DNA of 64,000 bases from Candidatus Barnesiella excrementigallinarum (GTDB lineage: Bacteria; Bacteroidota; Bacteroidia; Bacteroidales; Barnesiellaceae), in assembly GCA_019114445.1 (NCBI GenBank), contig DXFL01000030.1:107287-171286 (forward strand). The letters run 5' to 3'. How positions within the stretch are numbered: position 1 is the stretch's first letter; each line of letters opens with the position of its first letter. Shown here one piece after another: positions 49,416 through 53,510 of the stretch. The position numbers were made by a program, and so were the translations under genes. The notes under the pieces are model-generated. The model had not been told where the DNA came from. It saw only the letters and a list, made by a program, of their open reading frames with translations, and searched no databases.

Positions 49416-49446
49416 TTTGGATTAAAAAATGATTTCATTACATTTG
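49416..49446 (+). promoter_or_regulatory. Predicted promoter of the Phe/Tyr operon (-33 TTTG, N19, -7 TACATTTG)
   Basis: TTTG 49416-49419, 19-nt spacer, TACATTTG 49439-49446, matching the Bacteroidetes consensus. Confidence 0.8.
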
Positions 49447-49473
49447 CAACATCAAACTCATTTTTGACACACA

Positions 49474-49533
49474 ATGAAGAATTTTGATTTTGCATATTAC
49501 TTTGACTTTTATTTTTATTTTGAGCCAAAATAA
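49474..49533 (+). CDS. Phe/Tyr leader peptide MKNFDFAYYFDFYFYFEPK (attenuator)
   Basis: ATG AAG AAT TTT GAT TTT GCA TAT TAC TTT GAC TTT TAT TTT TAT TTT GAG CCA AAA TAA; 6 Phe and 4 Tyr codons in 19; followed by alternative antiterminator/terminator and pheA. Confidence 0.87.
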   Translation: MKNFDFAYYFDFYFYFEPK

Positions 49534-49534
49534 A

Positions 49535-49600
49535 AACGGGGTTTTATGCCAAAATCTATTGTAAAGAATAATATAAAGTTTACCACAATAAAATCCCGTT
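49535..49600 (+). promoter_or_regulatory. Predicted antiterminator pairing
   Basis: AACGGGGTTTTAT (49535-49547) pairs with ATAAAATCCCGTT (49588-49600): 13 bp with one G-U, sharing the 5' arm of the terminator. Confidence 0.8.
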
Positions 49601-49621
49601 CAAGTATGAGCGGGATTTTTT
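49591..49621 (+). terminator. Leader (attenuator) intrinsic terminator
   Basis: AAATCCCGTTC-aagtat-GAGCGGGATTT followed by TTT; 11-bp stem with one G-U, ending 25 nt before pheA. Confidence 0.9.
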
Positions 49622-49645
49622 ATAAAACAGACTATAAGAATCGAC

Positions 49646-50491
49646 ATGAGTAAAAGAGTTACCATACAAGGGATAGCCGGTTGTTACCACGAAGCCGCCG
49701 CACGAGCCTACTTCGAGGACGAAGAGATCGAGACTGTGGCTTGCTCGACCTTCCCCGAAATGTTCGAGCGCATGGACAGCGACCGCACCCTGCTGGGGAT
49801 TATAGCCATCGAGAACACCATTGCCGGCAGCCTGCTGCAAAACCACGAACTGCTGCGCAAAAGCGAATTGAGCATTATTGGAGAATACAAATTGCGTATT
49901 TCGCACGTATTGGCAGCCCTGCCGGGCGAAACCCTCGACGACATACGCGAAGTAAACTCCCACCCGATGGCGTTAATGCAATGCGGCGAATTTTTACAAG
50001 CCCACCCCCAAATGAAAGTGGTAGAAAAAGACGACACGGCCGGCAGCGCACAAGAGATTTCCCAACACCACCTATCGGGCCACGCAGCCATCTGCGGGAA
50101 ACTGGCGGCCGAAATTTACCACATGAACGTCTTGGCCGAAGGAATCGAGACAAACAAACGCAACTTTACCCGTTTCCTGATCCTTGCCGACCCGTTTTAC
50201 AGCGAAATCCTTACCGCCGGCAAACGGATAAACAAATCGTCGTTGGTATTCAGTCTGCCCCATACGCAAGGCAGCCTCTCGAAAGTGCTCACGATTCTTT
50301 CGTTCTACGACATCAACCTGTCGAAAATACAGTCCATGCCCATCATCGGGCGAGAGTGGGAATATCGGTTCTACATCGACCTCACATTCGACAACTTCAC
50401 CCGATACAAGCAGTCGCTCGAAGCCATCAGACCATTGACCAAAGATTTCAAAATACTCGGAGAATATGCAGAATTCAACAAACCCCTTTAA
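49646..50491 (+). CDS. pheA: Prephenate dehydratase
   Basis: 281 aa; VTIQGIAGCYHEAAARAYF, NTIAGSLLQN, C-terminal ACT-like domain (SLSKVLTILSFYDINLSKIQSMPI). Confidence 0.93.
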   Translation: MSKRVTIQGIAGCYHEAAARAYFEDEEIETVACSTFPEMFERMDSDRTLLGIIAIENTIAGSLLQNHELLRKSELSIIGEYKLRISHVLAALPGETLDDIREVNSHPMALMQCGEFLQAHPQMKVVEKDDTAGSAQEISQHHLSGHAAICGKLAAEIYHMNVLAEGIETNKRNFTRFLILADPFYSEILTAGKRINKSSLVFSLPHTQGSLSKVLTILSFYDINLSKIQSMPIIGREWEYRFYIDLTFDNFTRYKQSLEAIRPLTKDFKILGEYAEFNKPL

Positions 50492-51650
50492 CATAACACC
50501 CGCCAACCGGGTCAACACCGTGAGTGAATACTATTTCTCGAAAAAACTGAGAGAGATAGCCGAATTGAATGCCCGTGGACTAAATATCATAAGTTTGGGC
50601 ATAGGTGGTCCCGACCGGCCCCCTCATGCCGCTACCATCGATACGCTCTGCACAGAAAGCCGGCGTCCCGACGTCCACAGCTACCAACCCTACGTGGGAA
50701 TACCCGAATTGCGACAGGCTTTTGCCGACTGGTATGCCCGTTGGTACGGCGTGACACTCGACCCCCAAAAAGAGATTCAGCCGCTTATCGGTTCGAAAGA
50801 GGGTATACTCCACATTAGCCTCGCCTTCCTCAACGCGGGCGACGGAGTATTGGTACCCAACCCGGGCTATCCCACATACAGCTCGGTGAGCCGATTGGCC
50901 GAAGCCGAAATTTTCACTTACGACCTCGACGAAAATAACGGATGGCAGCCCGATTTCGACCAACTGGAATCGCTACCGCTCGACCGCATAAAACTCATGT
51001 GGGTCAACTACCCCAATATGCCTACCGGCGCCAACGCCTCGATGGAACTGTTCGCCCGGCTGGTCGATTTCGGGAAACGGCACCACATCATTATTGTCAA
51101 CGACAACCCATACAGTTTTATCCTCAACGACAAGCCCATCAGTCTGTTGGCGGTACCCGGAGCCAAAGATATTTGTATCGAGATGAACTCGCTGAGCAAA
51201 TCGCACAACATGGCCGGGTGGCGTATTGGAATGTTGGCATCCAACCCGCAATTCGTAGAATGGATACTACGGGTAAAGAGCAACATCGACTCCGGTATGT
51301 TCAGGCCTCTGCAAAGTGCGGCCATCAAGGCTCTCGCCTGCGAAAAAGAGTGGTACGACAAAGTAAACGCCACTTACCGCAAACGCCGCCGCATTGCCGA
51401 GAAAATCATGCAAGCCCTCGGATGCAGCTACGACCCGTCACAAGTAGGCCTGTTTGTCTGGGGCAGAATCCCCGACGAAGCCAAAGACGCCGAATCGTTG
51501 GCCGACGAAATACTGTACAACGCCCACGTGTTCGTCACACCCGGATTTATATTCGGGAGCCGGGGCAACCGTTACATACGCATTTCGCTATGCGCCCCCG
51601 AAGAAAAAATGGAAGAGGCATTACACCGTATCGAAAAAATAAAATCATAA
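50466..51650 (+). CDS. PLP-dependent aminotransferase (class I/II, aspartate/aromatic type)
   Basis: 394 aa; GIGGPDRPPHAATI, NPGYPTYSSVSRLAEAE, SLSKSHNMAGWRIG; overlaps pheA by 26 nt. Confidence 0.93.
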   Translation: MQNSTNPFNITPANRVNTVSEYYFSKKLREIAELNARGLNIISLGIGGPDRPPHAATIDTLCTESRRPDVHSYQPYVGIPELRQAFADWYARWYGVTLDPQKEIQPLIGSKEGILHISLAFLNAGDGVLVPNPGYPTYSSVSRLAEAEIFTYDLDENNGWQPDFDQLESLPLDRIKLMWVNYPNMPTGANASMELFARLVDFGKRHHIIIVNDNPYSFILNDKPISLLAVPGAKDICIEMNSLSKSHNMAGWRIGMLASNPQFVEWILRVKSNIDSGMFRPLQSAAIKALACEKEWYDKVNATYRKRRRIAEKIMQALGCSYDPSQVGLFVWGRIPDEAKDAESLADEILYNAHVFVTPGFIFGSRGNRYIRISLCAPEEKMEEALHRIEKIKS

Positions 51651-51662
51651 AAACATATCACC

Positions 51663-52727
51663 ATGAACGATTTACAATCTATCTTACTTCCCGGAGTAGA
51701 CGCTAAACGTCCCATCATCATAGCCGGCCCGTGCAGTGCCGAAACCGAAGAGCAAGTAATGACAACAGCCCGAAAACTGGCCGAGAGAGATATAAAAATA
51801 TTCCGCGCAGGCATTTGGAAACCCCGCACCAAACCGGGAGGATTCGAAGGCGTAGGCGTTGAAGGACTGGCGTGGCTGAAACGGGTAAAAGAAGAGACCG
51901 GTATGTACACTGCTACCGAAGTAGCCAACGAACGCCACGTGTTCGAAGCCTTGAAACATGGTATCGACATCTTGTGGATAGGCGCACGCACCACGGCCAA
52001 CCCCTTTGCCGTGCAAGAGATTGCCAACGCCTTGAAAGGGGTGGATATTCCCATCTTGATTAAAAACCCGGTAAACCCCGACTTGGAACTGTGGATCGGT
52101 GCCGTCGAACGCATATACAACGCCGGGCTCCACAAACTGGCCGTCATACACCGGGGATTCAGCAGCTACGACAAACAGTTGTACCGCAATATGCCCCAAT
52201 GGCATATCCCCATCGAGTTACGCCGCCGGTTGCCCAATCTGCCCATATTCTGCGATCCCAGCCACATCGGCGGGAAACGCGAACTCGTAGCTCCGCTATG
52301 CCAACAGGCTATGGACTTGGGATTCGACGGATTAATCGTAGAATCGCATTGCGATCCCGACTGCGCATGGAGCGATAAGAATCAGCAAGTTACCCCCGAT
52401 GCTTTGGACTACATACTCAATATGCTGGTTATCCGCGAAACCACGCAAACCACCGAAAACCTCTCGGAACTGCGCCACCAAATAGACGAACTCGACAATC
52501 AACTGCTCGAACTGTTGGCCAAACGTATGCGGGTATCGCGCGAAATAGGACAGTACAAAAAAGAGCACAGTATGCCCATATTGCAAACCAACCGCTACGA
52601 CGAAATTCTGCAAAAACGCATGGCTCAGGCCGTAGAATTGGGAATGGGTGCCGAATTTATGAAAGAGGTGATGCAAGCGATACACGAAGAGTCGGTTCAC
52701 CAACAAATGGAAATTATCAACAAATAG
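51663..52727 (+). CDS. Bifunctional DAHP synthase / chorismate mutase
   Basis: 354 aa; IIAGPCSAETEEQVM, FCDPSHIGGKRE; C-terminal chorismate mutase domain (LRHQIDELDNQLLELLAKRMRVSREIGQYKKE). Confidence 0.95.
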   Translation: MNDLQSILLPGVDAKRPIIIAGPCSAETEEQVMTTARKLAERDIKIFRAGIWKPRTKPGGFEGVGVEGLAWLKRVKEETGMYTATEVANERHVFEALKHGIDILWIGARTTANPFAVQEIANALKGVDIPILIKNPVNPDLELWIGAVERIYNAGLHKLAVIHRGFSSYDKQLYRNMPQWHIPIELRRRLPNLPIFCDPSHIGGKRELVAPLCQQAMDLGFDGLIVESHCDPDCAWSDKNQQVTPDALDYILNMLVIRETTQTTENLSELRHQIDELDNQLLELLAKRMRVSREIGQYKKEHSMPILQTNRYDEILQKRMAQAVELGMGAEFMKEVMQAIHEESVHQQMEIINK

Positions 52728-52736
52728 GAGGCTTTT

Positions 52737-53510
52737 ATGAAAATAGTAATTTTGGGAGCCGGGAAAATGGGCTCGTTCTTTGCCGATGTGCTTAGTTTCG
52801 ACCACGAGGTAGCCCTCTACGACATAGATCCTCGCCGGTTAAGGTTTGCCTTCAACACCCTACGCATGACCCAGCCCGAAGAGATACGCGATTTTGCGCC
52901 CGACTTGGTCATCAACGCAGCCACTGTAAAGTATACGATCGAAGCATTTCGGGCGGTACTCCCCTATTTGCCGAAACAAACAATCCTCTCGGATATTGCC
53001 TCGGTTAAAACCGGGCTACCCGAATTTTACGCCCAAGCCGGCCACCCGTTCGTATCGACCCACCCCATGTTCGGCCCTACCTTTGCCAGCCTGAGCGACC
53101 TGAGTATGCAAAACACCATTATCATCACCGAGGGCGACCACATGGGAAAAATCTTTTTCAAAGACATTTACCAACGGTTACGGCTAAACATCTTCGAATA
53201 CAGTTTTAAGGAGCACGACGAGACCATTGCCTACTCGCTCTCCATACCCTTTACCTCCACGCTGGTGTTTGCCTCGATCATGAAACATCAGGACGCTCCC
53301 GGTACAACCTTCAAACGCCACATGGACATCGCGAGAGGTCTGCTATCGGAGGACGACTTCTTGTTGACCGAGATTCTGTTCAACCCCAACACCCCCGATC
53401 AAGTACGGCGAATACAGGAACAGCTCTCGAACCTTCTCGACATTATCGAGCATAAAGACACCGAGAAGATGCAGGAATACCTCACCCGAGTAAGAAAAAA
53501 CATAGAATAA
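52737..53510 (+). CDS. tyrA: Prephenate dehydrogenase
   Basis: 257 aa; IVILGAGKMGSFFADVLSFDHEVALYD, STHPMFGPTFAS. Confidence 0.92.
   Translation: MKIVILGAGKMGSFFADVLSFDHEVALYDIDPRRLRFAFNTLRMTQPEEIRDFAPDLVINAATVKYTIEAFRAVLPYLPKQTILSDIASVKTGLPEFYAQAGHPFVSTHPMFGPTFASLSDLSMQNTIIITEGDHMGKIFFKDIYQRLRLNIFEYSFKEHDETIAYSLSIPFTSTLVFASIMKHQDAPGTTFKRHMDIARGLLSEDDFLLTEILFNPNTPDQVRRIQEQLSNLLDIIEHKDTEKMQEYLTRVRKNIE

Follow-up and report, generated by a model that had tools for sequence, protein, structure and literature searches.

We predict that the region upstream of pheA in Candidatus Barnesiella excrementigallinarum carries a ribosome-mediated attenuator for an operon of pheA, an aminotransferase gene, a DAHP synthase/chorismate mutase (DAHPS/CM) gene and tyrA, and that the signals sensed are charged tRNA-Phe and tRNA-Tyr. 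Based on sequence analysis, we assign this reading a probability of roughly 0.93. Its components, i.e., a leader ORF and two mutually exclusive stems, together with their conservation, covariation and spacing, are established at the sequence level. A ribosome-operated switch had been proposed in a first-pass annotation of this DNA, and this proposal is now well supported by conservation of the leader, by covariation in both stems and by the fixed distance between control codons and antiterminator. In what follows, the window is the whole stretch of DNA that was analyzed (64,000 nucleotides).

Leader region and proposed switch

The following features of the window are relevant to the predicted attenuator. 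All are on the forward strand.

49416..49446, +, promoter-like motif of the Bacteroidota type, TTTG-N19-TACATTTG, with TTTG at 49416-49419, TACATTTG at 49439-49446 and a 19-nt spacer between them (direct reading)
49474..49533, +, leader ORF of 19 codons with product MKNFDFAYYFDFYFYFEPK*, stop codon at 49531-49533 (direct reading; kept in relatives)
49535..49547, +, 5' strand of the antiterminator (region 2), AACGGGGTTTTAT (reading, folding, covariation)
49588..49600, +, 3' strand of the antiterminator (region 3), overlapping the 5' strand of the terminator (reading, folding, covariation)
49591..49621, +, intrinsic terminator, stem and T-run (reading, folding, covariation)
49646..50491, +, gene 1, pheA, prephenate dehydratase (Pfam PF00800, E 5.8e-54), start codon ATG at 49646
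50466..51650, +, gene 2, class I/II aminotransferase (Pfam PF00155)
51663..52727, +, gene 3, DAHP synthase fused to chorismate mutase (Pfam PF00793 and PF01817)
52737..53510, +, gene 4, tyrA, prephenate dehydrogenase (Pfam PF02153, E 3.4e-10)

The leader ORF contains 6 Phe and 4 Tyr codons, so that 10 of its 19 codons specify one of these two amino acids. When the 260 nt preceding pheA were shuffled with dinucleotides kept, an ATG ORF of equal Phe/Tyr density arose by chance in 3 of 20000 cases. The antiterminator (49535-49547 with 49588-49600) consists of 13 bp, including one G.U pair, and the terminator stem (49591-49601 with 49608-49618) consists of 11 bp, again including one G.U pair, and is followed by T's. 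Because one strand is common to both, the two structures are mutually exclusive. The promoter motif, the leader, the terminator with its T-run ahead of pheA and the antiterminator sharing the terminator's 5' arm had all been reported in the first-pass annotation; upon re-reading, each was recovered at its position, base for base.

Folding agrees with this alternation. An RNA ended at position 49604 adopts the antiterminator with precisely its 13 bp (-16.1 kcal/mol, z -4.3, with 0 of 200 shuffles as good), and the complete segment adopts the terminator fold (-23.4 kcal/mol, z -3.9). In the full-length RNA the terminator is the more stable fold, so antitermination would have to rely on kinetics, as it does in the classical model. 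We also simulated folding in the window with a ribosome in place. With the ribosome at the stop codon, the sequence left outside it folds to the terminator only, and when its A site is placed at the final Phe codon, the antiterminator forms in the partial transcript.

We infer leader translation, stalling, termination, a response to amino acids and separate action of Phe and Tyr, which would fit together as follows. The 5' end of the transcript is expected approximately 7 nt past the promoter motif, i.e., RNA polymerase would start some 20 nt ahead of the leader ORF, with a ribosome following it. Where both Phe and Tyr are ample, the ribosome would reach the stop codon and cover or unwind positions 49535-49547; with this strand masked, the terminator at 49591-49618 would form, and transcription would stop ahead of pheA. 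Where Phe-tRNA or Tyr-tRNA is scarce, the ribosome would stall on Phe or Tyr codons, at approximately 13 nt or more upstream of positions 49535-49547. The strand left free could then pair with positions 49588-49600 once these are transcribed, which would block the terminator and allow transcription of the operon.

Conservation, covariation and spacing

For comparison, we used 80 named genome contigs together with genomes belonging to the same order; the sequences upstream of pheA in these gave 135 distinct regions of 260 nt, almost all of them from Bacteroidales. As a leader we counted an ATG ORF in which at least 8 of 12 residues are Phe or Tyr. Conserved micro-ORFs of this kind, proposed earlier as a check on the attenuator, are present in 113 of the 135 regions, and the corresponding rate in shuffles is approximately 0.24%. 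On the opposite strand of the 135 regions, no ORF reaches this threshold, and the runner-up amino-acid pair (FS) is found in 21 regions, versus 113 for Phe and Tyr. Several loci (L080, L131 and L145) have a Phe/Tyr-rich frame without an ATG ORF, where a non-ATG start is possible, and a few relatives, e.g., L039, L047 and L117, have no recognizable leader at pheA. Of 114 Bacteroidales loci, 98 have a TAnnTTTG box ahead of the control codons; approximately 11 would be expected from shuffles.

Another 80 pheA loci, sampled across the phylum and including 20 from Bacteroidales, relate the leader to operon content. The leader is present in 51 of 52 loci that have the DAHP synthase/chorismate mutase gene after pheA, in 1 of 4 in which an aminotransferase or tyrA alone was detected beside pheA, and in 0 of 24 for which no operon partner was found. 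Given these restrictions and the box counts, we conclude that promoter, leader, switch and operon co-occur. One family of the class has pheA-aminotransferase-tyrA operons (L200, L203 and L206) in which a Phe/Tyr leader is not recognizable.

The first-pass annotation had explained the mixture of Phe and Tyr codons by the presence of tyrA in the operon. This explanation found no specific support: the share of Tyr is 0.42 where a TyrA is detectable nearby and 0.39 where it is not (42 versus 10 loci, p = 0.50). For lack of a difference in this share, we rejected a specific link between the Tyr codons and tyrA, with the caveat that the group without TyrA comprises only 10 loci. The mixture does fit the Phe/Tyr branch as a whole, with its shared DAHP synthase/chorismate mutase.

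Directly ahead of pheA, a terminator built as AAATCCCG...CGGGATTTTTT is present in most of the upstream regions. Of 116 leader/terminator pairs, 94 have a complement to the terminator's 5' strand on the 3' side of the control codons at p<=0.05 relative to shuffles (74 of them at p<=0.005), and in the other 22 the antiterminator is no better than p = 0.05. We aligned the 116 leader-terminator segments and examined covariation in both stems, a second check proposed with the original annotation. For the antiterminator, 84.5% of alignment cells are paired and 132 are compensatory (shuffles reach at most 78.9% and 62, and slid partners give 31-50%), and for the terminator 92.9% are paired and 168 are compensatory (shuffles at most 83.5% and 72). 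Both stems thus covary beyond shuffles; kinship among the sequences inflates the counts of compensatory cells, although the gap to the shuffles is wide all the same.

An A opposite a C recurs in the core of the antiterminator, such that 14 of 115 rows are unpaired at that column. Among Bacteroidales it occurs in, e.g., L010, L012 and L042, where the antiterminator strand reads GGCGAGA or GGCGAGG. Perhaps this mismatch tunes the strength of the stem.

The distance from the last Phe or Tyr control codon to the antiterminator strand is 13 nt with an SD of 2.1, and shuffled regions have an SD of 18.9. Among the 94 pairs, the stop codon lies at or just before the start of the antiterminator strand in 40, past the strand in 48 and inside it in 6. 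A sensor of ribosome position needs control codons at a near-constant distance and a stop codon that either closely precedes the strand or lies beyond it, as observed here. Together with the fold simulation, this geometry indicates that the position of the ribosome would decide whether the antiterminator strand is free.

Tandem forms and leaders at other operons

The pheA locus of the window has a single attenuator. At least nine other loci (L015, L029, L062, L085, L086, L087, L099, L124 and L129) have two Phe/Tyr leaders in series, and a terminator-like hairpin comes after each of the two. In several of these, the arms of the second attenuator are unlike those of the first; the second often has arms of the CCCACCTT type and a control run that ends in ...FYFM. 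A locus from another family of the phylum (L171) shows such a tandem pattern as well.

We also observed leaders with other codon biases. In the genome to which the window belongs, a His-rich leader, MTTLFLHHHHVHSFFPKGR, lies upstream of hisG (L155:1204-1340), and is followed by the complementary sequences ACGGTGAG and CTTACCGTC and then by a terminator; it is a candidate his attenuator. A leader rich in Ile, Leu and Val, MNTMLLHVISLSVISELIVVSR, lies upstream of ilvD in the same genome (L162:1219-1375), is followed by GGCGGAAAGG and by CCTTTCCGC...GGAAAGGTTTTT, and is a candidate ilv attenuator. At both hisG and ilvD, the complement to the terminator's 5' strand is close to the end of the leader. 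A Trp-rich leader, MIKFNLNNWWWRFIFTKIS, upstream of a trpE-like gene (L159 in G258) is a candidate trp attenuator. Judging from these leaders, these bacteria seem to use attenuation generally. Among approximately 50 loci inspected in the genome, none presented a second Phe/Tyr leader with the combined appearance of leader and terminator, and runs of five Phe/Tyr codons are at background level genome-wide (85 sites versus 105 in the reversed control).

Alternative explanations and known systems

A Phe/Tyr-rich ORF ahead of a terminator might also act through its peptide. In such a mechanism, resembling TnaC or ermC, the aromatic nascent chain would arrest the ribosome from within the exit tunnel, perhaps with free Phe or Tyr, instead of uncharged tRNA slowing decoding. 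The strikingly uniform leader sequences inside families, e.g., MTRFYAYYFFFYFYF, are what might be expected of an arrest peptide. Between families, however, length, start and end vary, Phe and Tyr replace one another freely, and the features that stay constant are the Phe/Tyr content and the distance to the stem. The His and Ile/Leu/Val leaders in the window's genome, at operons that match them, likewise obey a codon logic, and we consider peptide-mediated arrest improbable. Less probable again is that the switch is run by a T-box, a riboswitch or an RNA-binding protein, with the micro-ORF being incidental. It is generally known that T-boxes and riboswitches also use alternative pairing at amino-acid operons, but the whole window has 0 matches to Rfam families at the gathering score, including T-boxes, riboswitches and enteric amino-acid leaders. 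We therefore rejected these families for the window, in which no tRNA genes were found either. In addition, Phe/Tyr-rich ORFs occur phylum-wide with a fixed distance to the stem, and just some 20 nt are available 5' of the leader ORF, which leaves no space for an aptamer.

The terminator could also be fixed and unregulated, or the leader could give rise to a small RNA, either of which would reduce basal expression of pheA. The locus does have a good intrinsic terminator, yet this explanation leaves unaccounted for both the covarying antiterminator and a Phe/Tyr ORF at constant spacing from it, and we give it scarcely any credence.

The comparative evidence is strong that classical ribosome-mediated attenuation is a native and widespread form of amino-acid control in Bacteroidota, with a scope that includes Phe/Tyr, His, Ile/Leu/Val and probably Trp. 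The leaders have no matching Rfam family, and direct experiments on them are apparently scarce. The mixture of Phe and Tyr codons would make the pheA leader a two-input sensor. Because the switch would need a ribosome close behind RNA polymerase, the locus offers a ready test of transcription-translation coupling in major gut commensals, and the tandem forms provide natural variants with which sensitivity could be tested.

The principle is a textbook classic, and leader attenuation has already been suggested for a flavobacterium. Ribosome-mediated attenuators were reportedly predicted in several phyla by Vitreschak and co-workers in 2004 and by Lopatovskaya and co-workers in 2010, and the comparative-genomics predictions of the former are said to include some in Bacteroidetes/Chlorobi. 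Among reviewed systems, attenuation of pheA in Escherichia coli is classical (PMC1183508). The authors of a 2010 paper stated that they knew of no leader-peptide systems shown outside Proteobacteria and Actinobacteria before their own case in Firmicutes (PMC2965389). Leader-like sORFs have been noted in a Bacteroides map (PMC7366714).

Our element is like the enteric pheA, trp and his attenuators in having a leader ORF of cognate codons, exclusive antiterminator and terminator stems, the first structural gene directly after the terminator, and the same logic. It is unlike them in its mixture of Phe and Tyr codons, its operon spanning DAHP synthase/chorismate mutase, pheA and tyrA, its Bacteroidota promoter and its lack of an Rfam match. 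It also seems to differ in the 1:2 pause or protector hairpin: the window has a weak candidate (-7.6 kcal/mol, z -2.3), but there is no conservation of an enteric-type hairpin among the relatives' loci (median z -0.7). The earlier equation with classical enteric attenuation is supported for the stalling and exclusive-stem logic, with the qualification that this hairpin does not appear to be conserved.

In Flavobacterium psychrophilum, transcriptome work published in 2021 gave strong clues of leader-peptide attenuation at amino-acid operons; pheA and hisG are each preceded by a structured 5' element, and that of pheA is kept in Flavobacteriaceae and has no Rfam hits (PMC9723704). These elements share their phylum and genes with ours. 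In the parts of that account available to us, the Phe/Tyr mixture, alternative stems and spacing are not described, and the conservation concerns one family (PMC9723704), whereas we followed the element across Bacteroidales and into further families of this phylum.

The less familiar aspects of the present system are its dual Phe/Tyr codons, its phylum-wide reach and its tandem forms. On balance we lean toward the view that this is an uncatalogued Phe+Tyr dual-codon attenuator, widespread at the Bacteroidota aromatic operon, which repeatedly became two complete attenuators in series for the same amino acids, and which would imply attenuation-tight coupling of transcription and translation despite initiation that is largely free of Shine-Dalgarno sequences. 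In Salmonella mgtCBR, tandem leader-ORF attenuators read different signals, ATP and Pro (PMC3641672). The tandem pheA forms are like mgtCBR in having two leader ORFs in series on one transcript, but unlike it they have Phe/Tyr coding in both ORFs (e.g., L015, L062, L085, L086, L087, L124 and L129).
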